From Rudanella paleaurantiibacter (GTDB lineage: Bacteria > Bacteroidota > Bacteroidia > Cytophagales > Spirosomataceae): a DNA stretch of 64,000 nucleotides. The stretch covers positions 62,001 to 126,000 of the forward strand of contig NZ_WELI01000010.1 of NCBI RefSeq assembly GCF_009184635.1. Reading direction: 5' to 3'. Within the stretch, counting starts at the first letter, position 1. Each line of letters begins with the position of its first letter. Positions 23,075-62,872 of this stretch are shown here, in pieces. The position numbers and the translations under genes are program-made. The notes beneath the pieces are model-generated. The model was not told the DNA's origin. It worked only from the letters and a program-made list of their open reading frames with translations, and did not search any database.

Positions 23075-24976
23075 CTACACCGCCCCTGCCTTGATCTCGT
23101 CCACTACGGCCGGGTCGAGGAGGGTTGTGGTGTCGCCGAGGTTGTTCACGTCGCCCTCGGCAATTTTGCGGAGAATCCGGCGCATGATTTTACCGGAGCG
23201 CGTTTTGGGCAGGCCCGTTACAAATTGAATTTTGTCGGGCTTGGCAATGGGCCCAATCACGCGGGTTACGGTGGCCAGAATGTCGCGCTTGGTCAGGTCG
23301 GCATCGTGGTCGGCGGGAAGAGCTTCCGTAATCACGTATGCGTAAATACCCTGCCCTTTGATGTCGTGCGGGTAGCCCACCACCGCACTCTCTACCACGC
23401 CCGTGTGCATGTTGATGGCGTTCTCGACCTCAGCCGTGCCAATCCGGTGGCCCGATACGTTCAGCACGTCGTCGACACGGCCCGTAATCCGGTAGTAGCC
23501 ATCTTCGTCGCGCAGACAGCCATCGCCCGTGAAGTACATGCCGGGGTAGGTTGAGAAGTACGTTTGGCGGCAACGCTCATGGTCGCCGTAGGTCGTGCGG
23601 AGCATGCCCGGCCAGGGGAACTTGATGCAGAGGTTGCCCGACACGCCGTTGCCCTCGATAACCGTGCCGTTTTCGTCGACCAGCACCGGCTGCACACCCG
23701 GTAGGGGCAAGGTAGCGTAGGTCGGTTTGGTTTTGGTCAGGCCCGCCAGCGGAGAAATCAGAATACCACCGTTTTCGGTCTGCCACCAGGTGTCCACGAT
23801 GGGGCAGCGGTTTTTGCCGATGTTATCGTCGTACCAATGCCAGGCCTCGGCGTTGATAGGCTCACCCACCGAGCCCAGAACCTCCAGGCTGCTCAGGTCG
23901 TGTTTCTGCACCGGCTCCAGCCCGAAGCTCATCAGCGACCGGATGGCCGTGGGGGCTGTGTACAGAATATTCACCTTGTGCTTGTCGACAATCTCCCAGA
24001 ACCGGCCAGCATCGGGCCAGGTAGGCACGCCCTCAAACAACAGGGTGGTTGCTCCGCAGGCCAGCGGGCCGTACACAATGTAGCTGTGCCCCGTAATCCA
24101 GCCAATATCGGCCGTACAGAAATGCACCTGGCCAGGTTTGTACTGGAATACGTTGGCAAACGTGTAAGCCGCGTACACCATGTAGCCCCCGCAGGTATGC
24201 ACCACGCCTTTGGGTTTGCCCGTTGAGCCAGACGTGTACAGGATAAACAGCATATCTTCAGCGTCCATCTCCTCGGCAGGGCAGTCGGCTGTAACCTGCT
24301 TCAGTTCCTGCTCCATCCAGACGTCGCGGCCTTTGAGCATGGCCACCGGGGTGCGGGTACGGGTCATCACCACCACGCGCTCCACGCTTGGGCACCCGAT
24401 GAGGGCATCATCGACCACGCTTTTGAGCGGAATTTCTTTGTTGCCCCGGTAGGCTCCGTCGGCCGTAATCACGAGCCGGCATTTGGCGTCGTTGATCCGG
24501 TCGGCAATGCTTTGGGCCGAGAAGCCACCAAACACCACCGAGTGAACGGCCCCGATGCGGGCACAGGCCAGCACCGCAATGGCCAGTTCGGGCACCATGG
24601 GGAGGTAAATACACACCCGGTCGCCTTTGGCTACGCCGTTACGTTTCAGCACGTTGGCCATACGGCATACCTGATCGTGCAGCATCCGGTAGGTGAGCGT
24701 CACGCCAGACTCGTGCGGGTCGTTGGGTTCCCAGATAATAGCCGGTTGGTCGGCGCGGGTTTCGAGGTGCCGGTCGAGGCAGTTTTCGGTAATATTCAGT
24801 TTACCACCCTGAAACCACTTCACGTTGGGCTCGTCGAAGTTCCATTGCAGGGTTTTTGTCCAGGGTTTGCGCCATTTAAACTCAGAGGCCACCTCGGCCC
24901 AGAAGGCTTCGGGGTCTGATACACTTTTCTGGTAGGCCTCTTCGTACTCGGCAAAGGTTTTAAGCTGAAAATTCAT
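23075..24976 (-). CDS. acs: Acetyl-CoA synthetase
   Basis: 633 residues from the ATG at 24976 ([15 protein letters not shown]); upstream codons are not conserved in type. It activates acetate to acetyl-CoA with ATP. Visible motifs are the P-loop-like [11 protein letters not shown], the adenylation core [21 protein letters not shown], the hinge region [20 protein letters not shown], and [11 protein letters not shown] with the Lys that is acetylation-controlled in this family. It sits at the end of a same-strand run with prpE, a receiver protein and an SLC5-type sensor kinase, an order that recalls CrbS/CrbR control of acs. Confidence 0.95.
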
Positions 24977-25074: not shown

Positions 25075-27012
25075 TTATTCAAAAGCAAGTCCGATGCCCC
25101 GTGCGGCCAATTCAGCCCGGATTTCGTCCAGAATAACGGGGTCGTCAATGGTCGAAGGCATCGCAAACGATTCGCCATCAGCTAGTTGTCGGATGGTCTT
25201 TCGCAGAATTTTGCCCGACCGGGTTTTGGGTAATCGTTTTACGATGACGGCCTGCCGGAAATAAGCCACCGCCCCAATCTGATCGCGGATCAGGTTGACC
25301 AGTTCGGCTTCGACCGAGCGGGGGGTATCGGTCCCGTGGCTACCCTGCTCTGACGTGCCGGCCCAGTCGTCTTTCAAGACTACGAACCCCACCGGCCGCT
25401 GCCCGCGCAGGGAACAGGCCAGCCCCACCACGGCGCATTCGGCTACGGCCGGGTGACTGCCCACGAGTTCTTCCATTTCGCCCGTCGACAACCGGTGTCC
25501 GGCTACGTTGATCACATCATCTACCCGGCCCATGATAAACACGTAGCCGTCTTCGTCAATGTAGCCACCATCGCCGGAGAGGTAATACCCCGGAAACCGG
25601 CTCAGGTACGACTGCCGGAACCGCTCCGGGTCGCGCCAGAGGGTAGGCAGGCAACCCGGCGGCAGAGGCAGTTTAAGGCATACGAACCCTTCCTGATTGG
25701 GGCCGAGTGGGTCGCCAGCTTCGTCGAGAATCTGGAGGTCGTACCCGCAAACGGGCACCGTAGCCGAGCCCGCCTTTACGGGCATGGGGCTGATGCCCAT
25801 TGGGTTGGAGAGCATCGGCCAGCCCGATTCGGTTTGCCACCAGTGGTCGATAACCGGCACGCCCGACACCTCTTCGAGCCAGTGCAATGTAGGCGGGTCG
25901 CAGCGTTCGCCAGCCACGAAAACCGTGCGCAACGAACCCAGATTGTGGCGTTGACGGAGTTTGCCCGCCGGGTCTTCCTTGCGGATTGCCCGGAACGCCG
26001 TGGGGGCTGCAAAGAATACGTTCACCCCATGCTGTTCGATTACCCGCCAGAAAGCCCCGGCATCGGGTGTTCGGACTGGTTTGCCCTCGTACAACAGGCT
26101 TGTGCAGCCGCCCAGCAATGGGCCGTACACGATGTAACTGTGGCCCACGGCCCAGCCCAGGTCCGAGGCTGCCCAGAACACGTCGCCCGGTTCTACGTTG
26201 TACACTGCCTTGAGGCTGTACCGGAGCGCCACTGCATGGCCACCGTGGTCGCGTACAATGCCTTTGGGTTTGCCGGTTGTGCCGGAGGTGTACAGAATAT
26301 ACAGCGGATCGGTCGCGTTTACGGGTACTGGCTCGGCGGGTGTGGCTCGGGCAACGGTTTCGGCCCAGTCGAGGTCACGCCCGGCTACCATCGACGCCGT
26401 GCATTCGCGCCGTTGCAGAATAAGGCAGTGGTTGGGTTGGTGGGTGGCCAGCCGAATGGCCTCGTCGAGCAGGGGTTTGTACGGAATCACCCGGTCGAAT
26501 TCAATGCCGCACGAGGCCGACAGAATTAGCTTGGGCTGGGCATCGTTGATGCGCAGGGCCAGCTCGTGCGGGGCAAAGCCGCCAAACACCACCGAGTGAA
26601 TAGCGCCGATGCGGGCGCAGGCCAGCATGGCAAAAGCGGCTTCGGGCACCATGGGCATGTAAATCACGACGGTATCGCCGTGGCCAACACCCAGTTGCCG
26701 AAACGCCCCGGCGAGTTGGGCTACCTGGGCCAGCATCTCGCGGTAGCTGTACCGGCGTATGGTGCCCGTCACCGGCGAATCGTAGATCAGCGCGGTTTGG
26801 TCGGCCCGGCCGTTTTCGACGTGGTAGTCGAGGGCGGCATAGCAGGTATTGAGAACGCCATCGGCAAACCAGCGTGGGTAGCCATGCTCATCGGTCGACA
26901 GAATCTGTTCGGGAAACTGCACCCAGGGTATGGCCCGAGCCTCGTCCTGCCAGAAACCGGCCGGGTCGTTCAGGCTACGCTGATGGGCAGTGGTGTAAGA
27001 GGTTGGCAACAT
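25075..27012 (-). CDS. prpE: Propionyl-CoA synthetase-like acyl-CoA ligase
   Basis: 645 residues of the acetate-CoA ligase family. Features typical of the PrpE branch are [17 protein letters not shown] at the N-terminus, [14 protein letters not shown] after [11 protein letters not shown], and [16 protein letters not shown]; it ends [19 protein letters not shown]. It should convert propionate (possibly also acetate or butyrate) to the CoA ester. It lies 98 bases before acs and 81 bases after the receiver gene, so one operon is likely. The paralogous pairing with acs suggests the locus handles mixed short-chain fatty acids. Confidence 0.85.
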
Positions 27013-27093: not shown

Positions 27094-27468
27094 TCAGGCA
27101 AGCAATTCCTGCGCTTTGGCCATCAGCTCGCGGGTCGAGAACGGTTTGGGCAGGTACAGGTCGGCACCGGCATCGTACCCTTTCTGAATTTCAGTATCGC
27201 GGCTTTTGGCACTCAGAAAAATGACTTTTCCGTGCTGATGCTCGGGCGATTGCTTCACAAACTGACAAAGCTCGTATCCATTCATGTGTGGCATCATAAT
27301 GTCGAGTAAGAGCAAGTCGGGTTTCTCGCGCTGAATCAGCTCGTAGGCCTCGGCCCCGTCGCGGGCTATCAGCACCCGGTACCCTTCTTTTTTCATCAAA
27401 AATTCGAGCGACAACAGAATGTTCGGTTCGTCGTCGGCAATGAGTACAGTGAACTTATTGTTTTTCAT
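27094..27468 (-). CDS. Single-domain response regulator
   Basis: 124 residues, all receiver domain: acidic pair D12/D13, phospho-acceptor D56 (LLLLDIMMPHMNG), switch Ser in FLSAKS and Lys in YLPKPFS. No DNA-binding or enzymatic output domain is attached. Its start overlaps the end of the SLC5-kinase gene by 14 bases, so the two are coupled in translation and probably form a sensor/receiver pair. Because CrbR-type partners normally carry a LuxR-type DNA-binding domain, the output here must pass through another protein, or the receiver acts as a phosphate sink. Confidence 0.9.
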   Translation of the reverse strand: MKNNKFTVLIADDEPNILLSLEFLMKKEGYRVLIARDGAEAYELIQREKPDLLLLDIMMPHMNGYELCQFVKQSPEHQHGKVIFLSAKSRDTEIQKGYDAGADLYLPKPFSTRELMAKAQELLA

Positions 27469-30220
27469 AAGCGACAGCCCCTTCAGGAGCCAATGGTAGT
27501 CGAACGGTAAAGCAACTTCCTTCGCCTAACTTACTTTCTAATGTGATGGTGCCCCGGTGCAAATGAATAATTCGCCGGGTAATGGCCAGGCCCAGTCCGC
27601 TGCTTTTCAGAACCCGCCCCGACTTGGCCGACCGGCTGCTTCCCTTCTCGGTTTGCCGAACGGCGTGCGTCTGGTAAAACTTCTCGAAAATCAACTCCTG
27701 ATGCGCAAGATCGATACCGATGCCCTTGTCCTGCACCGTAAGCACCAACGCTCCCGCATCGGTGTGGGTGGTGATGGTAATTGGCCCGGCGGCCCGGTCA
27801 GAATATTTAATGGCGTTCGACAGCAGATTCACAATCACCTCCATGAGCCGGTCGCGGTCGCCCCATACCGAGTCGGATGGTTCAGTGTGGTTAGCAACCC
27901 GAATCGGAATCGCTTTCTCGGTGGCCAACGGCCCAACAACATCGACGGCCTCGGTCACCAGCTCGGGCAGGTACAGCCTTTCGGTCGATAGCTGATACCG
28001 GCCCGACTCGATCCGCTCCAGGTCCAGTACCTGATTGATGAGCCGGGTAAGCCGTTCTGACTCTTTGATGACCGTACCCAGAAAATGCTGCCGGGCGTCG
28101 GGGTCCATATCGGGCGTATCGTGCACAATTTCGGTCAGGGCCCGAATAGAGGTGATGGGCGTGCGGATCTCGTGCGTCACCGTCGACAGAAAATCATCTT
28201 TGTGCATATCGGCCGCTTTGAGCCGCTCATTGGCTTCGCTGAGCTGCCGGGTGGTTCGTTCGAGTTCGGCCGATTTGCGTTTCAGTTCTTTGTTGACAAG
28301 GATCAGTTCCTGCGACGATTTCAGAATCCGAATCATCTCATCAACCAGAATCGGTTCTTCTTTTGCCACCGAAGCCACCAGCGTGCGCGCTGACGCCGTA
28401 CCGATGGCTCCGGCCAGTACGCGCTCGGTGTAGGTTACCAGTTGGGCGTCGGCGTACAGGCTTTTCTGACCCGATGACTCGTCGGGGGCGTAACGAAGGA
28501 TGGCCCGGTTGGCGCGTTCGGGGCCGAAAAAGGTGGTAAGCAGCGAGCGGAGGTCGGCAATGAGCACTTTGCCCCGCCAGACGACTGAGTTATCGAGCGC
28601 CCGCGAGAGTTTGAAAATATCAACGAACAGGATGGCCTGATTGTATTCGATGGATGATTGGGGCCAGTTGGCCGAGCCCCATAAATACCCGATAAGATTG
28701 GCCAGTAACGACCAGAACATACCGTGGGCAATGGGTTCGAGGGTGTTGAGGCCGAAGAGGTTTTGCGGCCGTAGCCATCCAATGCCCAGCGGCCCGTCGG
28801 TCAGCAACTCGGCCGGTAGTAAAGCGGGCACCAGCGTGGGGAGTACCAGGGTGTAAAACCAGACCAGACTGCCTGCCCACAAGCCCAGACGGGCCCCCGG
28901 CAGGTTGCCCCCTTTCCAGAATAAGCCGCCGATAACGGCCGGTAAAAACTGCGCAACGGCCGCAAACGAAATCAGGCCCACCGACACGAGCGAAAAGTGA
29001 TGCGACACCGCCCGGTAGTACACGTAGGCCATGAGCAGAAACACCAGAATGGTAATTCGGCGGGTGTTGATGACAAATGACCCCGTACCCACCCGGCTTT
29101 GCCAGCTCGGGCGGCCAATGACCAGCGGCATCACCACGTTGTTGCTCACCATCACGCTCAGGGCAATGGTTTCGACGATGATCATGCCCGTAGCGGCCGA
29201 AAAGCCACCGATGTAAGCCAGTAGGGCGAGCCCTTTCTGCCCGTACTGAACCGGTAGCATGAGCACGTAGCTATCAGCATGAATAGGCAGGTCGGCCAGG
29301 AGAATATGACCGCCAAACGCAAGCGGCAGTACAAACAGATTAATCACAAACAGGTACAGCGGAAACAGCCAGATAGCCCGGTCGAGGTGTCTCTCGTCCA
29401 CATTTTCGACCACGGCTACCTGAAACTGACGGGGCAGGAACAAGACGGCCGCCATCGACATGAGGCAGTTCCAGAACCAATCGCCGGTAGTATGACCGGG
29501 GCCAAAGGTCAGTTGTTCTTTGAGCGCGGGTAGTTGTATCGCTTTACTGAAAATACTGGCGGGGCCGTCGAACAGGCCAAACGTGACAAACACGCCCAGG
29601 GCTACAAATGCTACCAGTTTCACCAGCGACTCAAACGCAATGGCCGTTACCATGCCTTCGTGCCGTTCGGTGGCTTCGAGCGTGCGGGTCCCGAACAGAA
29701 TGGTGAAAATGCCCAATAACAGCGTGGTGTAAAACGCTGGATCGGTCAGAAAAAAGCTTCTGTCGTACGCGTCGGGGCTGCCCGAGAGTAGCGACAGGCT
29801 GCCCGATATAGCCTTGATCTGAATCGAAATGTAGGGGATGATGCCCACCAGACAAAGCACCGTAACGAACACGCCAAGCCCCCGGCTTTTGCCGTAACGG
29901 GCCGAGATAAAATCGGCAATGTTGGTGATCCGCTGCTGCTTGCAGATTCGGATAATCTTGCGCAGGATTATCCACCAAAGTGGGGCGGTAAGCGTTGGGC
30001 CTATGTAGACTGTCAGAAACTGCACGCCGTGTTCGGCGGCCCGGCCCACGCTGCCGTAGAATGTCCAGGCGGTGCAGTACACAGCCAATGACAGGGAATA
30101 GATGTACGGGTTATTGACCAGACTCCGGCCGGTGCGGCTTCGGCGCTCGGCAATGTCGGCAATAACGAAGAGCAGACACAGATACCCCGCCGATACAAAG
30201 AGGAGAATCAGACTATTCAT
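27455..30220 (-). CDS. SLC5 symporter-STAC-histidine kinase sensor (CrbS/CbrA-like)
   Basis: 921 residues from the ATG at 30220. Residues 1-520 form a sodium:solute symporter domain with about 13 membrane helices (ITNIADFISARYGKSRG near 98-114; YIGGFSAATGMIIVETIALS near 336-355). Residues about 545-620 match a STAC domain (LIADLRSLLTTFFGPERANRAI, VLAGAIGTASARTLVASV, read in parts). A coiled coil about 640-675 leads to the kinase: H683 in VTHEIRTPITS, NLLSNAIKYSD, DKGIGID and GLGLAITRRI. No PAS domain is seen. This architecture couples solute passage or binding to kinase activity. It is coupled to the receiver downstream and the small membrane protein upstream. Confidence 0.92.
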   Translation of the reverse strand: MNSLILLFVSAGYLCLLFVIADIAERRSRTGRSLVNNPYIYSLSLAVYCTAWTFYGSVGRAAEHGVQFLTVYIGPTLTAPLWWIILRKIIRICKQQRITNIADFISARYGKSRGLGVFVTVLCLVGIIPYISIQIKAISGSLSLLSGSPDAYDRSFFLTDPAFYTTLLLGIFTILFGTRTLEATERHEGMVTAIAFESLVKLVAFVALGVFVTFGLFDGPASIFSKAIQLPALKEQLTFGPGHTTGDWFWNCLMSMAAVLFLPRQFQVAVVENVDERHLDRAIWLFPLYLFVINLFVLPLAFGGHILLADLPIHADSYVLMLPVQYGQKGLALLAYIGGFSAATGMIIVETIALSVMVSNNVVMPLVIGRPSWQSRVGTGSFVINTRRITILVFLLMAYVYYRAVSHHFSLVSVGLISFAAVAQFLPAVIGGLFWKGGNLPGARLGLWAGSLVWFYTLVLPTLVPALLPAELLTDGPLGIGWLRPQNLFGLNTLEPIAHGMFWSLLANLIGYLWGSANWPQSSIEYNQAILFVDIFKLSRALDNSVVWRGKVLIADLRSLLTTFFGPERANRAILRYAPDESSGQKSLYADAQLVTYTERVLAGAIGTASARTLVASVAKEEPILVDEMIRILKSSQELILVNKELKRKSAELERTTRQLSEANERLKAADMHKDDFLSTVTHEIRTPITSIRALTEIVHDTPDMDPDARQHFLGTVIKESERLTRLINQVLDLERIESGRYQLSTERLYLPELVTEAVDVVGPLATEKAIPIRVANHTEPSDSVWGDRDRLMEVIVNLLSNAIKYSDRAAGPITITTHTDAGALVLTVQDKGIGIDLAHQELIFEKFYQTHAVRQTEKGSSRSAKSGRVLKSSGLGLAITRRIIHLHRGTITLESKLGEGSCFTVRLPLAPEGAVAYEKQ

Positions 30221-30558: not shown

Positions 30559-30789
30559 TTATCGGCTGGCCTCGTCGTTGTACTCGCCCTGAAGCGCGTA
30601 CAGCCCGAACGTAGCCAGTCCGCCCACGATAATCGGCATCAGCACAAATACGATGATGATGCCAAACACGAGATCTTCCTGTTTGCCGGTCGATAGTTTC
30701 GGTAAACCAAAGGCGGTTAGGCCGTAGTAGCCACACACAGCGGCCAGTCCGAGCCACACAACACCCATTATGCGTTTGATTGCGTCCAT
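30559..30789 (-). CDS. DUF6814-like small membrane protein
   Basis: 76 residues: a short start (MDAIKRIMGVVWLGLAAVCG), a first membrane helix, a linker with FGLPKLSTGKQED, and a second helix (FGIIIVFVLMPIIVGGLATFG) ending YALQGEYNDEASR. This is the layout of DUF6814 proteins, which are commonly found beside MFS transporters in Bacteroidota. It lies 82 bases after the MHS transporter on the same strand with a hairpin between, so it may be made at a different level from the transporter. Function is unknown; an accessory subunit is a guess. Confidence 0.7.
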   Translation of the reverse strand: MDAIKRIMGVVWLGLAAVCGYYGLTAFGLPKLSTGKQEDLVFGIIIVFVLMPIIVGGLATFGLYALQGEYNDEASR

Positions 30790-30830
30790 GTCTTTGAAAC
30801 GGTTTATACTGTTTTTTTGAATGATTAGGG

Positions 30831-30859
30831 CGTTGGCGGGTGTAGTTAGCCCGCCAACG
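30831..30859 (-). terminator. Hairpin between MHS transporter and DUF6814 gene
   Basis: CGTTGGCGGG and CCCGCCAACG form a perfect 10-bp stem with a 9-base loop just past the transporter stop. A T-run is lacking directly after it on the minus strand, so partial attenuation is as likely as full termination. Confidence 0.55.
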
Positions 30860-30871
30860 GGTAAGGGTTGG

Positions 30872-32455
30872 TTAGTCAGCTGCCGATGGTCGGTTTTTGA
30901 TGTACAGTACACCAATTACGAAGCTTACGGCCGCCACAATAATCGGGTACCAGAGGCCCTCCAGGTACGGAGCTGCGTAGGGTAGGGCTGCGCCGGCTTT
31001 CTCGGCTGCCAGGTTGGCGTCTTTCGCACCGGTAGCCAGGTAGGTAGCCACGGCCGGTAGCAGACCGCCAAACACCCCGTTGCCAATGTGGTAGGGTAGC
31101 GACATGGAGGTGTACCGGATCTTGGTGGGGAACATCTCGACCAGGAAAGCAGCAATGGGACCGTACACCAGCGTTACGTAAATCACCTGAATGAATACGA
31201 GCCAGATCAGAGTCCAGCGGTCGCTGTCGTTGAGGGTCAGCGTTTTCTTGATTTCTGGCTTGGCCGGTTCGGCAGCGGGGGCGCTCGCTATTTTGAGCTT
31301 TGTAACTTCGGTGAGCTTGGTGCCGTCGGTGTACTCTTTTTTCACGGTCTTGGTCATAATCGACACGCCCGCTACGTTGGGGTCGGCCGTCACGACGGAG
31401 TCGATGGTAGTAGCTGCCGTTACCTCCTGCTTGTTGGCCACGTTGGTGGTCTGATACATCCGCTCGTAGATGGGGCGGTACGTGAGCAGGGCTACCAGCA
31501 TACCCACGAGCATGATGCCTTTCCGGCCGATTTTGTCAGATAGCCAGCCAAACACGATAAAGAACGGTGTACCCATCAGCAGGGCCACACTCATCAGGCT
31601 GTCGGCCTGAATGGCGTCAACGTTACACACCGTTTTGATGAAGCTCATGGCGTAAAACTGACCGGTGTACCAAACCACACCCTGCCCCATCGTAGCACCA
31701 AACAGGGCCAGCAACACAAACTTGAAGTTGTACTTGTTGCCAAAGCTTTCTTTGAGCGGGTTGGTCGACGTTTTGCCCTCGGCTTTCGCCTTAGCAAACA
31801 GGGGCGACTCGCTCATGTTGCGCCGGATGATGAACGATACGTACACCATCAGGACCGATACCCAGAACGGTACCCGCCAGCCCCAGTCGTCGAAAGCCTC
31901 TTTGCTCATCGACGTGCGGGTAATCAGAATCACAATCAGCGATACAAACAAACCGGCGGTAGCCGTGATCTGAATCCAGGAGGTCCAGAAACCACGCTTG
32001 TCGGCGGGTGAGTGCTCGGCCACGTAGGTAGCGGCTCCCCCGTATTCACCCCCGAGGGCCAGCCCCTGCAACAAACGCAGGATCAACACCAGCAGCGGGG
32101 CCATGAACCCGATGGTTTCGTAACTCGGAATAAGGCCAATGGCAAACGTAGCGCCCCCCATCAGCATCAGGGTGACCATGAAGGTGTATTTCCGGCCGAT
32201 GAGGTCGCCGAGTCGCCCGAAAAACAGAGCCCCGAACGGACGCACCACGAAACCGGCGGCAAACGTTGCCAGCGTAGAGAGGAAAGCGGCCGTTGGGTTG
32301 CCTTCCGGGAAAAATTTAGTGGCCAGCACCGTGGCCAGCGAGCCGAAGATGTAGAAGTCGTACCACTCAATGAGTGTCCCGACAGACGATGCCCCGATAA
32401 CGCTCATAAGCGTGCGGGTGCTGCTGGCCTTAGCGGCTTTTGGTTCTGATACCAT
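30872..32455 (-). CDS. MHS-type MFS transporter with periplasmic insertion
   Basis: 527 residues. The metabolite:H+ symporter signature is clear: IEWYDFYIFGSLA at the start, GRLGDLIGRKY (loop 2-3), LRLLQGLALGGEYGGAATYVAEH, and a second GWLSDKIGRKG (loop 8-9). Between helices 9 and 10 lies an unusual soluble segment of about 75 residues (333-410) containing TVKKEYTDGTKLTEVTKLKI, predicted to face the periplasm. Relatives carry organic acids. It starts 56 bases after the porin stop and so is probably co-transcribed with it. Placement next to acs and prpE suggests a short-chain acid substrate, which is inference. Confidence 0.88.
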   Translation of the reverse strand: MVSEPKAAKASSTRTLMSVIGASSVGTLIEWYDFYIFGSLATVLATKFFPEGNPTAAFLSTLATFAAGFVVRPFGALFFGRLGDLIGRKYTFMVTLMLMGGATFAIGLIPSYETIGFMAPLLVLILRLLQGLALGGEYGGAATYVAEHSPADKRGFWTSWIQITATAGLFVSLIVILITRTSMSKEAFDDWGWRVPFWVSVLMVYVSFIIRRNMSESPLFAKAKAEGKTSTNPLKESFGNKYNFKFVLLALFGATMGQGVVWYTGQFYAMSFIKTVCNVDAIQADSLMSVALLMGTPFFIVFGWLSDKIGRKGIMLVGMLVALLTYRPIYERMYQTTNVANKQEVTAATTIDSVVTADPNVAGVSIMTKTVKKEYTDGTKLTEVTKLKIASAPAAEPAKPEIKKTLTLNDSDRWTLIWLVFIQVIYVTLVYGPIAAFLVEMFPTKIRYTSMSLPYHIGNGVFGGLLPAVATYLATGAKDANLAAEKAGAALPYAAPYLEGLWYPIIVAAVSFVIGVLYIKNRPSAAD

Positions 32456-32511: not shown

Positions 32512-33927
32512 TTAGAGGTAGATCTGCGCCTGCAACAGGAACTCACCTTTGTAATCGCTGATGGTGTTCTTGTCGGTGTAAATAGGCCTTACAGACCATT
32601 GGGGGGTAATTTTGGCATGATGCCCATCGAGGTAGAAGTTACAGCCCAGGTCGTAGTAGCTACCGGCCTTTCCGAGTGCTTCCAGGTTCTTGTAGGTATA
32701 GGCGGCAAAGGGCTGCACCCGCATTTTGGGTTTGTCGGTTGTTTTGGGCAGCAGCAAGCCTGCCTGCGTGTACCAGATCTGCCCCGTTCCGAGCAAGGGG
32801 CGGGCATCGCCCGGCCCGGCCAATGCCCGTTTCCCTTCAAAAGCGGGGTTGTTGGCACCGGGGTTCATGATCCCCAGGTTTCGGATGTAATTAGGGCCGA
32901 AATTATAGTCGTAAAAGACACTGTAAGCAGTCACAGCCATGTTCTTTTTCTTGTCGCCAAACGGCAGATCCGCGAACATATCCACAGAGAACAGATTAAT
33001 ATCACTCGGTTTCAGGCTGCCCCCGTTGTAATAGCGGGTGCCCTCAGGTTGGCGGTAAAAGCCGGCACCGATGTTGAACACCCGTTTGGTGCCCACGTAC
33101 GTGCCAACCTTGAACGGTAAAATATTGGCCTCCTGATCCAGAAACTGATACTCTAAGTACGCGCCGTACGACATTTTACTTACCCCGTTGTTGTCGACGG
33201 CTACGTCGGGCGTAACTACCGTACCCGAGGTGGGCGGGGTCTGGTTGGTGGCAAACGGCTTGTTGTAGTTAAGCCGGTATTCAAACTTGCCCAGTTTCCC
33301 CTTGGCGTACACCCCAAACAAACGGGCAAACTGATCGGAGTTTTCGATGAGCGGCCAGTTGAAAATGGGCGCGTCGATAGCCAGAAAGTTGAGCGTACTG
33401 GCCGACGTCATTCGCGAAACCCCATGCCAGTAGTGTAGCCCCGCCCCAACGTAGAGCGTGTTTTTAGCCACTGACCCGTCGGGTTTCTTCCCGGCTGGTA
33501 CCACCGCGTATTCATTCCATACGTCGTGGAAAAAAATACCGGGTTTCTTGCCCTGCCCGTAGCCGCCCGTACCACTGCTACCCGATGCTCCGCCGTTGAC
33601 AAACGTTTGGTTATTGATACCGGCATGCACCAGAATCAGGTACCGGGGCGAAATCTGGGCGTACCCCAGCAACCGGAGCCGGCGGGCACCCACGTCGGTG
33701 AGTTGGTCGGTTGGCGTTCCGTTGACACTGGTGCCGGGGTTCATTTGCATGGATCGGAACCAGATCTGATTCCACATGATGATGCGTGCGTACTTGGTAC
33801 CATCTGGGCTCAGATTGAATTTGAGACCAGAACCATATTCACTCGACCCCTGGGCTCTCAGCCGGGTAGTGGTGGCCAGGCTCAGCAGAGCCAACGCCAG
33901 CGTAAACGTTACGGAACGGGACAACAT
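32512..33927 (-). CDS. Outer-membrane porin-like protein 1
   Basis: 471 residues with a signal peptide (MLSRSVTFTLALALLSLATTTRLRAQ). The barrel-like body begins GLKFNLSPDGTKYARIIMWNQIWFRSMQMNPGTSV (seen in parts) and ends with an aromatic-alternating strand (FLLQAQIYL). It is a paralogue of the protein at 35031-36704: both have the RxxMW-QIW start, NPGTS, and a shared GANNQTF / GINNQTF block. Such porins are common in Cytophagales and probably admit small organic acids. It is the first gene of a unit with the MHS transporter. Its promoter shares an element with the second porin. Confidence 0.8.
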   Translation of the reverse strand: MLSRSVTFTLALALLSLATTTRLRAQGSSEYGSGLKFNLSPDGTKYARIIMWNQIWFRSMQMNPGTSVNGTPTDQLTDVGARRLRLLGYAQISPRYLILVHAGINNQTFVNGGASGSSGTGGYGQGKKPGIFFHDVWNEYAVVPAGKKPDGSVAKNTLYVGAGLHYWHGVSRMTSASTLNFLAIDAPIFNWPLIENSDQFARLFGVYAKGKLGKFEYRLNYNKPFATNQTPPTSGTVVTPDVAVDNNGVSKMSYGAYLEYQFLDQEANILPFKVGTYVGTKRVFNIGAGFYRQPEGTRYYNGGSLKPSDINLFSVDMFADLPFGDKKKNMAVTAYSVFYDYNFGPNYIRNLGIMNPGANNPAFEGKRALAGPGDARPLLGTGQIWYTQAGLLLPKTTDKPKMRVQPFAAYTYKNLEALGKAGSYYDLGCNFYLDGHHAKITPQWSVRPIYTDKNTISDYKGEFLLQAQIYL

Positions 33928-33969
33928 AGTTAAGACAAGTAGCGGTTTAGGTGGTCGTGAAAACCAGGT

Positions 33970-34017: not shown

Positions 34018-34033
34018 GCTAAAACCTATAGAT
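34018..34033 (+). promoter_or_regulatory. Putative operator GCTAA-N3-CTATAGAT before porin 1
   Basis: GCTAAAACCTATAGAT, one base shorter in the spacer than the three copies at 34486, 34505 and 36831 and in the opposite orientation. It lies about 90 bases before the porin 1 ATG, just upstream of its promoter. Confidence 0.5.
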
Positions 34034-34049
34034 ATTTCCAGGTTGCCTC

Positions 34050-34469
34050 TCATTCCCGAAACCGCTCCCACTTGATCAACATGAACTTGTCGCCCAGCTC
34101 GGTAACAATCATGCCCGCGCCACTCACATTCTCCGGTTTGCTGAAATACTCGGCTAACTCTTTGTTGCTGAGTATTTTATAAGTAGGGTGGTAGCTGTTA
34201 TTTTCGGGGACTTTGATCTGATACTTCTTCACCCAGTTCATGACCGAAACGTGGCTAACTCCCAGCAGTCGTTCGATCTCTCGGTAGCTAACACCCTCTA
34301 TATAAAGCTGTAGCGCCTTGATCACATAGTAGCTGCTGATACTCTTTCCCGCTTTTTCAACCGTAAAGTTGTAGTGGCACTGTTTACAACGAAACCGCTG
34401 TCGGCCGTTGAGTACGCCATTCCGAACGGCATTTGTGTTTGAGCACTTTGGGCATTTGGGCGTTGCCAT
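34050..34469 (-). CDS. IS1 InsA-like zinc-ribbon/HTH DNA-binding protein, stand-alone
   Basis: 139 residues. A zinc ribbon (C6, C9, C28, C31: CPKCSN and RFRCKQCHYNFTV) is followed by a helix-turn-helix (about 47-85: IEGVSYREIERLLGVSHVSVMNW), which is the layout of InsA from IS1-type elements. There is no InsB/DDE part here or nearby and no terminal inverted repeats, and the last 45 residues (LSNKELAEYFSKPENVSG then TELGDKFMLIKWERF) are not part of a transposase. It looks like an exapted transcription regulator. It lies between two paralogous porin units, and tandem repeats sit directly before its start, suggesting self-control. Confidence 0.75.
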   Translation of the reverse strand: MATPKCPKCSNTNAVRNGVLNGRQRFRCKQCHYNFTVEKAGKSISSYYVIKALQLYIEGVSYREIERLLGVSHVSVMNWVKKYQIKVPENNSYHPTYKILSNKELAEYFSKPENVSGAGMIVTELGDKFMLIKWERFRE

Positions 34470-34484
34470 GTGGGATTAGGACAA

Positions 34485-34522
34485 AATCTATAGTTAATTA
34501 GCGAATGTATAGCAAATTAGCG
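34485..34522 (-). promoter_or_regulatory. Tandem 19-bp repeats before InsA-like gene
   Basis: AATCTATAGTTAATTAGCG (34485-34503) and AATGTATAGCAAATTAGCG (34504-34522) are directly adjacent and identical at 16 of 19 positions. Each contains the motif that reads GCTAA-N4-CTATA-S-AT on the minus strand. They begin 16 bases before the ATG, overlapping where the promoter should be, as for an autoregulatory operator. A degenerate third copy, GCTAATTCTATC, lies at 34529. Confidence 0.65.
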
Positions 34523-34570
34523 GATTAAGCTAATTCTATCTTGCTATCCTTTTATTTTGTCCATTATCCG

Positions 34571-35020
34571 CTACGGCTGGGCGCATACTTTCCGTAATCC
34601 GTTCAGAATAGGCACAAAGTATTTTTTGTCGGCCGAGCTGGTGTTACGGCTTTCGTTATGCGTTTGCAGCACAAACGGTGTTTCGTCGGCCTGGTACACC
34701 CGAATGGTGGTAGCTACACTGATGATAATGTTGCTGCCCTGCGTGTAGGTGGCATCGAACAGGTAAGGCCCATTGTACTGCATATTTTCGCCCTGGTTGT
34801 ACTGGCTTTGCGCCTTGGTGGCCCGCACCCGCGCCAGCGTGGGGTTTGCCTCAATAATCTTGTAGCCGTTGTCGGTCAATAGTTTGGTGCAGCGTTCCAC
34901 AAAAACATCCTGCGACACCGCGCACGGAATGTACATGGGGCGGGGTTTGGTATTGATGCAGCCCGTTTGGAGGCCTACCAGCAACAGTACAGACAAGTAG
35001 AGAAAGGATGCCCTTTTCAT
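34571..35020 (-). CDS. Lipoprotein of unknown function
   Basis: 149 residues from the ATG at 35020 with a lipobox (LQTGC, Cys21). The mature part starts INTKPRPMYIPCAVSQDVF and continues with a short alpha/beta-type domain (CTKLLTDNGYKIIEANPTL, then VATTIRVYQADETPF). It starts 10 bases after the stop of porin 2, so the two genes are one operon and the lipoprotein may help or sit beside that porin in the outer membrane. No known family was recognised. A longer frame upstream would overlap the porin gene and lacks an export signal. Confidence 0.75.
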   Translation of the reverse strand: MKRASFLYLSVLLLVGLQTGCINTKPRPMYIPCAVSQDVFVERCTKLLTDNGYKIIEANPTLARVRATKAQSQYNQGENMQYNGPYLFDATYTQGSNIIISVATTIRVYQADETPFVLQTHNESRNTSSADKKYFVPILNGLRKVCAQP

Positions 35021-35030
35021 AGCATGGCGG

Positions 35031-36704
35031 TTAGAAAAAGATGAAAAACTGGGTGATAATTTCGGACTTTCGATCGGTAATCCGCATACCCCCAAGGCCT
35101 TCCTGTCCGGGTACGTCGTTGGTTGCTGCCGAATAAATCGGGCGTGGGCGGTAGTGTACTGTAATTTTGGCATTATGCCCGGCCAGCAACCAGTTCAGGC
35201 CACCCTCGAGCAGGTTATAGGGCTGATTGAGCCGCTCGAAATTAGCCCGGCTGTACGATACATACGGCTGAAACTGACCAAAGCTACGCGTCCAGGCACG
35301 CGGAAACATATAACCCGCCTGAACGTGGAATACGGAGCCTGTGCCCCAGGTCGGGTACGTATTACCCGCCCCATTGAACGCCTGTGGCTGCGAGCCCGGC
35401 TGCGTGGGCGCACTGGCCAGGTTCATGGTACCGGCGTTGCGCACAAAGTTGGGGCCGTAGTTGAACCAGTAATGAGCCGCATACGCTGTGATCGACGAGC
35501 GATTTTCCCCCTCCGGCCCCAGGGGGAGTTCGAGAAAGCTGTCGAGGGCAAAATGTTTCATGGCGGTCACGGTGGTATCAACGTTGGCCGTTTGCAGGGC
35601 AATGCGCTGATTCTCGGGTAGCGACGAGAAGCCTGTGATCGCTGCCGGGTACCGCCCAGCCTGCAATTCGCTTGTTTGCGCAGCCGTGAGCGACACCCCC
35701 GCCGGAATAGTTGGCGTGGCCGAAATCCGGGAGCGGTGCCACATGGCGTCGGGCTGAATCATGAAACCACCCCCAATGTTGAATACTTTTTTAGTGCCCA
35801 GATACGAGCCCACCATAAACGGCAGGGTTTGGCTTTCCTGCTCGAAGAAATCGTAGGTAGCATACAACTGGTACAGGGGCTTGTTGAGCGTACGCGAGTT
35901 GTATTGGGAGATGTTGTACGCGTTGGGCAGGGCCGTAAGACCGGCGGCCCAGCCGGCACCCCGCCCGGCCAACGTGGTCATGGGGGAGGCTCCCGTACGT
36001 TGCGCCTGCGTGTAAGGGGTTGTCCAGCCGGTGGCGGCTTCGGGTATGGTGAAAGGCTTGGTCAGCACGGCCCGGTAGCTGAGTTTGCCAATCTCACCCT
36101 TGGCGTACAGACCAAAGGTACGGGCAAACTGATCGTTGGCGTCGAGCAAGGCCCAGCCATAAAGCGGGGAGTCGAGCGTGAGGAAGTTGAGCGTGGCGGC
36201 ATTGGATAACCGCGACAGTCCCGACCAGGTGAGCAACCCCGCCCCGAACGAGAAAGCCCGGCTGGCTTTAAATTCGGTCCAGGCATCGTGTACAAACACC
36301 GACTGTCGTTTGCCGTCGGTAACCCCATCAGGGCCCGTCAGCAGGCCACCGCCCCCCGTATTGAAGGTTTGGTTGTTGGCGCCAATAATCCAGAAAACCA
36401 GAATGCGGGGTGTCAGTTGCCCGTGCATCAGAATCCGGCTCCGCCGAATACCCACATCCCAGGTTTGCGGCACATTGTTATTGCCGGAGATACTGGTGCC
36501 AGGATTTTGCTGTTGCCAGCGCATCCAGATCTGCGACCACATCAGCAGTCGGATAAAGCTCGTGCTGTCTTTGTTGAGATACAGTCGTAAACCGTTCTTG
36601 TAGTTGGAACCGGCCCAGTAACCCTGAGCCGAGGCCGGCGAACAGAACAGTGCAGAGCCAAGCAGTAAGATACCTAAAAGTACATGCCGTAATGGACTGG
36701 ACAT
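35031..36704 (-). CDS. Outer-membrane porin-like protein 2
   Basis: 557 residues from the ATG at 36704, with a signal peptide (MSSPLRHVLLGILLLGSALF, cleaved near SPASAQ). It is a longer paralogue of the porin at 32512-33927: aligned starts (FIRLLMWSQIWMRWQQQNPGTS against YARIIMWNQIWFRSMQMNPGTS, read in parts), a shared ANNQTF block, and LGTKKVFNIGGGF against VGTKRVFNIGAGF. The extra length is mostly loop sequence around residues 245-285 and 340-385. It is followed by a lipoprotein in the same operon. Its upstream region carries both motifs shared with porin 1 and the InsA-like gene. Confidence 0.8.
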   Translation of the reverse strand: MSSPLRHVLLGILLLGSALFCSPASAQGYWAGSNYKNGLRLYLNKDSTSFIRLLMWSQIWMRWQQQNPGTSISGNNNVPQTWDVGIRRSRILMHGQLTPRILVFWIIGANNQTFNTGGGGLLTGPDGVTDGKRQSVFVHDAWTEFKASRAFSFGAGLLTWSGLSRLSNAATLNFLTLDSPLYGWALLDANDQFARTFGLYAKGEIGKLSYRAVLTKPFTIPEAATGWTTPYTQAQRTGASPMTTLAGRGAGWAAGLTALPNAYNISQYNSRTLNKPLYQLYATYDFFEQESQTLPFMVGSYLGTKKVFNIGGGFMIQPDAMWHRSRISATPTIPAGVSLTAAQTSELQAGRYPAAITGFSSLPENQRIALQTANVDTTVTAMKHFALDSFLELPLGPEGENRSSITAYAAHYWFNYGPNFVRNAGTMNLASAPTQPGSQPQAFNGAGNTYPTWGTGSVFHVQAGYMFPRAWTRSFGQFQPYVSYSRANFERLNQPYNLLEGGLNWLLAGHNAKITVHYRPRPIYSAATNDVPGQEGLGGMRITDRKSEIITQFFIFF

Positions 36705-36752
36705 AAACGAAACGTTTGTGAAGTGTTTGTACTCATTTGATAAAAACTTGCA

Positions 36753-36785
36753 CAAAGGTTATCGGGCCGCCTATATGAGGTCAAA
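36753..36785 (-). promoter_or_regulatory. Porin 2 promoter (TTTG-N20-TAACCTTTG)
   Basis: Minus strand: -33 TTTG (36785-36782) and -7 TAACCTTTG (36761-36753), 20 bases apart, close to the rpsU promoter geometry. The leader would be about 40 bases. The -33 box overlaps the shared element at 36783-36795. Confidence 0.5.
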
Positions 36786-36795
36786 TAGATACTAT
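36783..36795 (-). promoter_or_regulatory. Shared porin element, copy B
   Basis: AAATAGATACTAT (plus strand), the same as copy A at 33999-34011 except for one base, overlapping the -33 box of the porin 2 promoter. Confidence 0.55.
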
Positions 36796-36830
36796 CAATA
36801 ATGCCCTTTTTAGCATCTGGAACGCGGTTT

Positions 36831-36847
36831 ATCTATAGTATTTTAGC
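36831..36847 (-). promoter_or_regulatory. Putative operator GCTAA-N4-CTATAGAT before porin 2
   Basis: The minus strand reads GCTAAAATACTATAGAT, 36 bases upstream of the shared porin element. It matches the tandem sites before the InsA-like gene (GCTAATTAACTATAGAT) outside the spacer. Confidence 0.55.
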
Positions 36848-36930: not shown

Positions 36931-37227
36931 ATGTTACTTCGCCAGTTAGAATACATTATTGCCGTCGATACGGAGCGCAGTTTTACCCGGGCCGCTGACC
37001 GGTGCTGCATCACGCAGCCCACGCTTAGCCAGCAAATCCGTTGCCTCGAAGCCCACCTGAATATTGAGATTTTTAATCGCCAGCAGGTGCCCGTTGTGCC
37101 AACACTAGAGGGGCAGCTAATTCTTGAAAAAGCACGGGGGATTGTGGCCGAGGTGCGCGCGTTAGAGCAGTTTGCCCGGCAACTGAACCGGAAGGAGCTC
37201 GCGGTGTATAACTTAGAAGCTGTTTGA
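36931..37227 (+). pseudogene. Truncated LysR-family regulator (HTH only)
   Basis: 98 codons. Residues 1-65 are a normal LysR winged HTH (MLLRQLEYIIAVDTERSFT, ITQPTLSQQIRCLE, IFNRQQVPVVPTLEGQ), most like the OxyR group, followed by the linker helix to about residue 92. The last codons and the TGA come from the left end of a 169-bp inverted-repeat element, and the whole effector-binding domain of about 200 residues is absent. The fragment could still be translated into a small DNA-binding protein. It is divergent from porin 2, so the intact gene may once have regulated that porin. Confidence 0.75.
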
Positions 37228-37380
37228 GTTAGCGATTTGAGACCGTAGGGAGCGGATTTTGGTTGCTGACAAGCCAATTTTTGCCGGTCGTAGCGGTTGC
37301 TACGGCCCAAAAAAGTGGCGCAGACAGCGACAAAAAGCTGCCCTTATGGGCCAAAGTGATTAACTCAAACAGCTTCTAAG
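37212..37380. mobile_element. MITE-like element with 20-bp inverted ends
   Basis: CTTAGAAGCTGTTTGAGTTA at 37212-37231 and its exact complement at 37361-37380 bound 169 bases with no coding content. The inside has a smaller hairpin (GTAGC...GCTAC near 37295-37315). It interrupts the lysR fragment. No target-site duplication is seen: the left flank is GTATAA and the right flank CAGCGG, which fits a later deletion on one side. Confidence 0.75.
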
Positions 37381-60343: not shown

Positions 60344-62872
60344 ATGGATGCAAAATTTTCGAATCGCGTTAAAGAAGTAATCACCTTGAGCCGGGAGGAA
60401 GCCCTCCGGCTGGGCCATGATTACATCGGCACCGAACACCTGCTGCTGGGCATGATCCGGGAGGGGGAAGGGGTGGCCATCGGCTTGCTGAAAAAACTCG
60501 GAATATCGCTCGACGAACTCCGGGTGACCATTGAGCAGGCGACGAAAGGAACGGCCACCAACAATGTAAAAAATCTGGCGAACATCCCGCTGACCCGTCA
60601 GTCGGAGAAGACGCTCAAGATTACGTATCTGGAGGCCAAAATCTTCAAAAGCCCGCTGATCGGTACAGAGCACCTGCTGTTGTCCATTCTGCGTGACGAA
60701 GACAATGTAGCCACGCAGATTCTGAACAAGTACAACGTTAATTACGAAGTGATTAAGGAGATGCTGGAATATCAATCATCCGGAACCCGTCCACACATGG
60801 GACCTGAAACCGACGACGATGACAACGATCGGGGGATGTTCGGCGGAGGTGGCAGCACCGGTCAGGGCAAGGAAAAAGGGGGCGAGAAATCGCGCACGCC
60901 CGTCCTTGATAACTTTGGCCGTGACCTGACCAAGCTCGCTGAACTCGGCAAACTCGACCCAATCGTTGGCCGTGAAAAAGAAATTGAACGTGTGGCCCAG
61001 ATTCTGAGCCGCCGGAAGAAAAATAACCCGATTCTGATTGGTGAACCAGGGGTTGGTAAAACCGCTATTGCGGAAGGCCTCGCCCTGCGCATCGTTCAGA
61101 AGAAGGTATCGCGGGTGCTGTTTGGCAAGCGCGTGGTTACGCTCGATCTGGCTTCGCTGGTGGCCGGTACCAAGTACCGGGGTCAGTTTGAAGAGCGGAT
61201 GAAGGCCGTAATGAACGAGCTGGAGAAGTCGCCCGAAGTGATTCTGTTTATCGACGAGCTGCACACAATTGTGGGCGCTGGTGGAGCCTCGGGCTCGCTC
61301 GATGCGTCGAATATGTTCAAGCCGGCATTGGCGCGGGGCGACATTCAATGTATCGGGGCTACTACACTCGACGAATACCGTCAGTACATCGAGAAAGATG
61401 GTGCCCTGGCCCGTCGTTTCCAGATGGTGATGGTCGATGCGACGTCGATTGACGAAACCATCGAAATCCTGAACAACATCAAGGATAAGTATGAAGATCA
61501 CCACCACGTAAACTACACGCCAGAGGCTGTAGAGGCTGCGGTGAAACTGTCGGAGCGGTATATCTCTGACCGATTCCTGCCCGATAAGGCCATCGACGTG
61601 CTCGACGAGGTGGGTGCCCGCGTACACATCTCGAACATTACTGTACCTGAAGATATTCTGAAGCTCGAAGAGCAGATTGAGAATATCAAGAAGGAGAAAA
61701 ACCAGGTGGTTAAGAGCCAGAAATACGAAGAGGCTGCCCAACTCCGCGACAAGGAGAAGCGCCTGATCGATCAGCTGGAGCGTGCCAAGCAAGCCTGGGA
61801 AGAAGATACCAAGAAGCGCCGGTACACGGTAAACGAAGACAACGTGGCCGAAGTAGTGGCCATGATGACGGGCATCCCCGTAACGAGCGTTTCGAACGAC
61901 GAAGGCAAGAAGCTCATTAACATGGGCGAGGAGCTGAAAGGTCGCGTGATTGGTCAGAACCCCGCCATTGAAAAGCTGGTGAAAGCCATTCAGCGGACGC
62001 GGGTAGGCCTGAAAGACCCCAAGAAGCCCATTGGTTCGTTTATCTTCCTTGGCCCGACCGGGGTTGGTAAAACGGAGCTGGCGAAAGTACTGGCAACGTA
62101 CCTCTTCGATAAAGAAGACGCGCTGGTGCGGATCGATATGTCGGAATACATGGAGAAATTCAGTGTAAGCCGACTGGTGGGAGCTCCTCCGGGCTACGTA
62201 GGTTACGAAGAAGGCGGTCAGTTGACCGAGAAGATTCGTCGGAAGCCATACTCAGTAGTGTTGCTTGACGAGATCGAGAAAGCACACCCGGATGTGTTCA
62301 ACATCCTGTTGCAGGTGCTCGACGATGGTATCCTGACCGATGGTCTGGGTCGCCGGGTCGATTTCCGCAACACGATCATCATCATGACCTCAAACATCGG
62401 GGTTCGTGACCTGAAAGACTTCGGAGCCGGTATTGGTTTTGCTTCACGCAGCCGCACCGAAAACCAGGACGACATGATGAAGAGCACGATTCAAAGTGCG
62501 CTTCGGAAGGCGTTCTCGCCCGAATTCCTCAACCGTCTGGACGATGTGATCGTGTTCAACTCGCTGCAACGCGAAGACCTGCACCAGATCATCGACCTGT
62601 TGCTGGCCAAGCTGCTGGGCCGTGTTACAAGCCTGGGCTACAAGGTAGAGCTGACCGAGAAAGCGAAGGATTTCCTGGCCGAAAAAGGCTACGATCCGCA
62701 GTACGGTGCCCGCCCGCTCAACCGCGCCATCCAGCGTTATCTGGAAGATCCCGTTGCTGAAGAAATTCTGAAGGGTGATCTGAAGGAAGGCGATGTGATT
62801 CTGGCCGACTATGCAGGCGAAGGCGAAGCCCTGACGATTTCGGTAAAGAAGCAGGAAGTTGTTGAAGAATAA
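60344..62872 (+). CDS. clpC: ATP-dependent Clp protease ATPase subunit ClpC
   Basis: 842 residues, full length. It has an N-terminal Clp repeat domain ([20 protein letters not shown]), AAA-1 with Walker [10 protein letters not shown], the Tyr pore loop [19 protein letters not shown], a UVR motif in the middle domain ([20 protein letters not shown]), and AAA-2 with [15 protein letters not shown] and [20 protein letters not shown] near the end. It unfolds substrates for ClpP in the cytoplasm. Long acidic/Gly stretches ([20 protein letters not shown]) link the N-domain to AAA-1, as is usual in this phylum. It is followed by a strong terminator. Confidence 0.97.

Follow-up and report, generated by a model that had tools for sequence, protein, structure and literature searches.

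A probable domesticated IS1-family transposase, with a conserved site before its own gene and before genes of acetate and propionate assimilation, in Rudanella paleaurantiibacter and other Bacteroidota

Here we ask why the genome of Rudanella paleaurantiibacter carries, between two porin units and close to acs and a prpE-like gene, a small gene whose product resembles the InsA protein of the insertion sequence (IS) IS1, and why a short motif recurs both before this gene and before the two porins. The gene lies in a window of 64,000 nt (the whole stretch of DNA analysed, positions 62,001 to 126,000 of contig NZ_WELI01000010.1 in assembly GCF_009184635.1; coordinates below count from its first base). 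A preliminary description of the window had placed four motif sites, two of them in tandem at the InsA-like gene, and had proposed that the protein controls itself and a local regulon of two porin units. All four sites lie at the coordinates and on the strands then given, and we hold with good confidence, judging binding from the conservation of the sites, that the 139-aa protein is a domesticated IS1-family transposase acting as an autoregulated controller of acetate and propionate assimilation.

34050..34469, minus strand: IS1/InsA-like regulator, 139 aa, with Pfam Zn_ribbon_InsA and HTH_23/28 over cut-off
34486..34502, minus strand: putative operator site, promoter-proximal member of the tandem before the regulator gene, exact match
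34505..34521, minus strand: putative operator site, distal member of the same tandem, exact match
34018..34033, plus strand: putative operator site before porin 1, inverted relative to the gene, N3 variant
36831..36847, minus strand: putative operator site before porin 2, in the same direction as the gene, the best consensus match of the genome

The protein consists of a zinc ribbon (Cys 6, 9, 28 and 31, all four kept in all 123 aligned rows, one gap excepted), a helix-turn-helix (HTH) domain with helices at residues 46-82, and a short C-terminal remnant. The ribbon matches PF03811 at 28.4 bits (cut-off 26.1) and the HTH models PF13384 and PF13518 are over cut-off; the NCBIfam IS1 transposase model NF033558 gives 79.1 bits, under its cut-off of 100. 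Nearly all family models that match the protein are transposase models, so a gene of this kind may be taken for a mobile element and overlooked. Two plasmid-borne IS1 transposases, one from an archaeon and one from Methylobacter, align to regulator residues 6-136 and 5-134 with 40 and 35% identity, respectively, reaching into the start of the DDE catalytic domain, the remainder of which is absent from the regulator. At the aligned position of the first IS1 catalytic Asp, which we take to be catalytic in the transposases, Asp is found in 0 of 121 orthologues and Lys in 80. Proteins of the family measure 139-143 aa, with one of 176 through choice of start, and IS1 genes 683 nt. An AlphaFold2 (AF2) model built from 34 sequences (mean predicted local distance difference test, pLDDT, of 84; predicted template modelling score, pTM, of 0.60) shows the strands of the zinc ribbon, the HTH as three helices, and a small C terminus made up of a strand, two helices and two further strands. 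A fold search with this model returned nothing at E <= 0.001, its top matches being Lrp/AsnC-like with template modelling (TM) scores below 0.3 and not used, and a sequence search of solved structures gave none below E 0.03.

The gene is single copy, with one match in the genome at E <= 0.1. The window genome and a second one, G002, are the two genomes of the genus found with the regulator; between them the gene differs at 41 nucleotides and 1 amino acid (nonsynonymous divergence dN 0.003, synonymous divergence dS 0.72), and by these values it is under strong purifying selection. Across the family, taken as Spirosomataceae, orthologues occur in 65 of 150 genomes (52-100% identity), the weakest scoring 169 bits and the next class of matches at most 43 bits; one of them, in G132, is a partial match covering residues 1-98. 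Orthologues at E <= 1e-25 are present in 30 of 395 genomes drawn across the phylum. Furthermore, two peptide patterns run over one genome per species (84,980 species) retrieved 460 relatives, the best 80 of which belong to Spirosoma, Fibrella, Runella, Emticicia, Flectobacillus, Arcicella, Siphonobacter, Hymenobacter and others. The HTH is nearly invariant among orthologues, and so is the site.

How specific, then, is the motif? GCTAAN{3,4}CTATASAT has 4 exact matches in the window and 0 in 100 dinucleotide shuffles, which bears out, for exact matches, the earlier statement that it occurs nowhere else in the window; allowing 2 mismatches in the N4 form adds two weak sites, at 34287 and 47226. 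Sites that fall inside SulP coding sequence, in both the window and G002, were put down to chance. The loose core GCTAAN{2,5}CTATA has 18 matches in the 6.72-Mb genome, 4 of them at the locus, and its reversed control has 47; since the control is the commoner, the short core alone is not rare, and we rejected it as stand-alone evidence. The longer consensus TTTGCTAAWWWRMTATAKAT with 0 or 1 mismatch is confined genome-wide to the locus, at the porin-2 site and the promoter-proximal regulator site only, so at this stringency the motif is not equally frequent elsewhere in the genome.

At the regulator's own gene, upstream regions of 61 loci (the window and 60 of the 64 other orthologue genomes of the family) show TTTGCTAA-N4-(C/A)TATA(G/T)AT, N4 being the usual form in relatives and N3 that of the window's porin-1 site. 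A weight matrix was built from 78 family sites, duplicates removed, and tested on upstreams outside the training set. A site of at least 14 bits was found in 31 of 33 Hymenobacter-type upstreams (7 of 1650 Markov-simulated sequences) and in 24 of 26 upstreams of the phylum set (29 of 1300 simulated), so the motif is kept before orthologous genes. Pairs with both members of at least 9 bits occur in 25 Hymenobacter-type and 20 phylum-set loci, and among the spacings of 10-40 tried the best was always 19 bp. With a site pair of this period kept before orthologues well outside the family, the self-control first proposed for this gene is strongly suggested.

Where this pair lies relative to the start of transcription can be judged from promoter consensus. 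The sigma-A -7 consensus for Flavobacterium is TAnnTTTG (passages of PMC9723704). A TAnnTT[TC][GA] box spans the tandem junction in 42/42, 26/27 and 19/19 of the tandems counted for this purpose, which come from 42 of 61 family, 27 of 33 Hymenobacter-type and 19 of 27 phylum-set loci. A -33 box (TTTG at 18-22 nt) was seen in only 6/61, 0/33 and 3/27 upstreams; as no consistent -33 box was found, the promoter reading rests on the -7 box. By consensus only, the tandem would thus be placed over the core promoter of the regulator gene, and two sites 19 bp apart in that position most likely mean self-repression. We therefore picture a transposase that has kept its DNA-binding half and, of the catalytic domain, just a remnant of the start; it would act as a chromosomal transcription regulator, recognise the family consensus given above, and repress itself through the two copies on its own core promoter.

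Beyond its own gene, what might the regulator control? The neighbouring genes of the window are the following.

23075..24976, minus strand: acetyl-CoA synthetase acs, TIGR02188 964 bits, cut-off 725
25075..27012, minus strand: propionate/acyl-CoA ligase-like gene (prpE-like), best NCBIfam matches below their cut-offs
27094..27468, minus strand: single-domain receiver protein, 124 aa, with only Response_reg over cut-off
27455..30220, minus strand: histidine kinase with a sodium:solute-symporter-like N terminus (CrbS-like), Pfam SSF, HisKA and HATPase_c
30559..30873, minus strand: small DUF6814 protein, PF20664, start codon provisional
30872..32455, minus strand: major facilitator superfamily (MFS) metabolite:H+ symporter, Pfam Sugar_tr/MFS_1, TIGR00883 below cut-off
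32512..33930, minus strand: porin 1, an outer-membrane porin, ExtI-like below cut-off (NCBIfam NF040900 41 bits, cut-off 150)
34571..35023, minus strand: 150-aa protein downstream of porin 2, lipoprotein-like start by eye, no family match
35031..36707, minus strand: porin 2, NF040900 41 bits, below cut-off

Gene order is recurrent. A porin 1 homologue is labelled in 27 of the 61 family loci and in 22/24 and 22/27 of further locus sets, with an unlabelled frame of similar length at its position in many other loci of the 61; an MFS homologue is labelled downstream of the regulator in 54 of 61, and the pair is followed by the kinase, the receiver, often prpE, and acs. After the regulator gene, 34 of 61 loci (counted by hand) have an inverted site of at least 11.5 bits. 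The kinase gene, too, is preceded by a site in L065, L068 and L078, at a distance of 250-269 bp, set against a background of 11 sites of at least 12 bits per 341,562 simulated bases. Relative to the gene, the site is inverted at porin 1, at acs and before the kinase alike.

The acs gene offers a comparison between genomes with and without the regulator. A site of at least 14 bits stands in the 500 bp upstream of acs in 15 of 30 regulator-bearing and 1 of 30 regulator-less genomes (one-sided Fisher p = 3e-5, a nominal value since relatives are not independent, which tempers the argument). The regulator gene is 6.0-13.5 kb from acs in all 30 regulator-bearing genomes and adjoins it in two phylum-set loci (L292 and L307). 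Of the two acs genes of G148, the one linked to the regulator is preceded by a 27-bit site and the unlinked one by none. As 11 of the 15 acs sites start 87-133 bp upstream of the start codon, their position would be more in keeping with activation than with repression.

In Runella-, Flectobacillus- and Arcicella-type loci the regulator has genes for isocitrate lyase and malate synthase beside it (identified by Pfam in L087 and by eye in L070), and among 30 genomes searched 4 of 7 malate-synthase loci have an upstream site of at least 12 bits. Over whole genomes, pattern matches number 67 against 18 for the reversed control in 44 regulator-bearing genomes, and 7 against 14 in 40 regulator-less genomes (both summed by hand); 37 of the 67 fall within ~15 kb of the regulator (placed by hand). 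Of 13 remote places inspected, two were kept: a malate synthase in G026, its family confirmed, and a lead in G029. At the other 11, no acetate gene was seen by eye in the first 60 residues. One more remote match, in G049, was located before malate synthase. The G029 lead is a 24.8-bit site at L119 1805-1825, ~106 bp before a gene that by eye resembles an acyl-CoA carboxylase beta subunit, a possible propionate-side target.

Taken together, single sites, mostly inverted, may mark genes of acetate and propionate uptake and assimilation for control: porin 1-MFS, joined in relatives by acs, malate synthase and the gene for the SLC5-type kinase, and in the window's genus by porin 2. The idea of a local regulon of two porin units is thus upheld in that both porins have sites and too narrow in extent, the marked set taking in acs, kinase and malate synthase genes elsewhere. 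In the window itself, acs and the kinase gene have no site, and the locally marked genes are the regulator, porin 1-MFS and porin 2.

Several points also weigh against this reading. At up to 3 mismatches, TTTGCTAAWWWRMTATAKAT finds 11 genome matches against 8 for the reversed control. Remote matches are near background, and the 30 of the 67 pattern matches that lie farther from the regulator than ~15 kb are not far above the control count of 18; we therefore rejected remote matches as regulon members. Outside the window genome, the porin-2 site was seen in G002 alone, where it differs by one base. Half of the regulator-bearing genomes (15 of 30, the window genome and G002 included) have no 14-bit site upstream of acs, two of these loci (L176 and L179) being unlinked acs paralogues, and in G039 neither of two acs genes has a site, the linked one having none of at least 12 bits. 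Three of the 7 malate-synthase loci are likewise without one. At the regulator promoter, repeats are altered in the L070 group, and in L106 the start has no site nearby. Two of six regulator-less clusters keep a site, G102 before acs (21 bits) and G048 before MFS (14 bits); the G102 case, which is also the single regulator-less genome with a site in the acs comparison, reads like recent loss of the regulator. Finally, the motif has promoter-like TATA/TTTG elements, so conservation at the regulator site could be partly that of a promoter, and the marked genes have other candidate regulators, namely the receiver/kinase pair and, in some loci, an XRE-type protein.

The last two points lead to different accounts of the motif. 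If it were a promoter element of a sigma factor or a variant -7 box instead of an operator of the neighbouring protein, the box over the tandem junction and its likeness to the Flavobacterium consensus (passages of PMC9723704) would be explained; we think this improbable, as the sites at porin 1, acs and the kinase gene run opposite to their genes, the motif does not exceed its control in the 40 regulator-less genomes, the box leaves out much of GCTAA and CTATA, and a promoter would not be expected to show a repeat held rigidly at 19 bp. Improbable, too, is that another regulator, of XRE/IrrE type or the output of the kinase-receiver pair, binds the motif and that the InsA-like protein is only a target. 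Such a protein does adjoin the regulator gene in L070, an XRE/IrrE-type gene is by eye divergent from malate synthase in L129, and the kinase tracks the InsA-like regulator across genomes; yet a family search backs the XRE gene in one locus only, no promoter keeps the motif as regularly or as widely as that of the InsA-like gene itself, and the HTH of that protein is as nearly invariant as the site.

A decaying or still mobile IS1 element, with terminal repeats that resemble operators, would fit the relation to IS1 transposases over nearly the whole protein length. Against it stand the single genome copy with recurring neighbours, the excess of nucleotide over amino-acid differences from G002, the loss of the catalytic Asp from every one of the 121 orthologues, and sites before several separate operons, which together make the chance of it next to negligible. 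We thus keep to a domesticated, self-controlling regulator.

What signal might reach this regulator? The kinase and receiver of the window suggest one answer. Among the 150 family genomes, 58 have both the regulator and the SLC5-type kinase, 7 the regulator only, 2 the kinase only and 83 neither (kinase presence at E <= 1e-150; some single-gene cases come from fragmented assemblies). In the genomes listed, eight genera include members with and members without the pair, and there the two genes change together apart from two exceptions; the regulator and sensor kinase appear to have been gained and lost together. Six regulator-less genomes, one of them in the window's genus, keep MFS-DUF6814-acs; the 9-20 kb inspected there contain no regulator, porin 1, kinase or receiver, and prpE is whole in two and a fragment in one. 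G038 represents a regulator-less sister cluster. The kinase genes of G022, G046, G047 and G122 each show one in-frame stop within the kinase match, possibly broken genes, sequencing errors or a match running past a stop.

Pfam matches of the window kinase include no receiver, STAC or PAS domain. In the window receiver, unlike the LuxR-type CrbR, no DNA-binding domain was found, which suggests, short of proof, that the InsA-like protein may supply the DNA-binding output. Perhaps, then, the SLC5-type kinase and an output-less receiver have the domesticated transposase as their DNA-binding output in a three-part acetate-sensing pathway spread over Bacteroidota, a former IS1 transposase having replaced the LuxR-type CrbR, with kinase, receiver, porin 1 and regulator forming one exchangeable module on a regulator-less MFS-acs core; this is a tentative proposal that we doubt more than we believe.

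Other elements lie beyond porin 2. A 98-aa LysR-type HTH fragment with no effector domain (36931-37227) is divergent from porin 2, and G002 has a 94-aa frame at the same position. Inside the 3' end of this remnant starts an element like a miniature inverted-repeat transposable element (MITE; 37213-37379, 167 bp, 19-bp terminal inverted repeats), whose repeat has 20 genome matches: eight pairs are offset by the same 148 bp, one pair by 85 bp, and two matches stand alone. The G002 locus, L052, has no exact copy of the repeat.

How does this compare with known systems? RamB-like XRE/IrrE proteins are regulators of acetate metabolism, and an XRE/IrrE-type protein is present in L070; they share with our regulator the kind of genes that it would control and differ in DNA-binding fold, nor is the window protein one of them. 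Host regulators recruited from mobile elements are already known, for example Ner/SfsB, where a DNA-binding protein of a mobile element was taken up for carbon metabolism; that example is a phage XRE-type protein, and as whole words InsA and IS1 occur 0 times in the main text of the review that describes it (PMC8987985). An IS1-derived acetate regulator was not found described in the open-licence literature (subscription journals fell outside this coverage), in line with the earlier remark that no described system of this kind was known to its author. If our reading is true, the locus would present a clear prokaryotic case of a transposase turned regulator, with an operator conserved across a phylum.

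A close relative in arrangement is InsA of IS1 itself, whose promoter partly overlaps the left inverted repeat that InsA binds (passages of PMC12428005). Like InsA, the window protein joins a zinc finger to an HTH, and its gene has the layout of an autorepressor, the promoter overlapping the repeat that it would bind; unlike InsA, it is single copy, seemingly outside any IS, and has a longer C terminus without the catalytic Asp, and its sites precede porin, acs and kinase genes. In function, a close parallel is CrbS/CrbR of Vibrio and Pseudomonas, in which an SLC5-type histidine kinase system controls acetate utilisation and acs, the LuxR-type response regulator CrbR using an imperfect inverted repeat as its site (passages of PMC5715377 and PMC9100948). 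The linkage of an SLC5-type histidine kinase to acs is shared, whereas in the window no receiver domain was found in the kinase, a separate 124-aa receiver has no LuxR domain (the search for a LuxR partner being confined to this receiver), and the site is a GCTAA-N4-CTATA direct repeat in place of the imperfect inverted repeat. Work on SLC5/STAC systems has been restricted mainly to Gammaproteobacteria (passages of PMC9100948); if the regulator acts as we propose, it would provide a testable control circuit for acetate and propionate assimilation in Bacteroidota.

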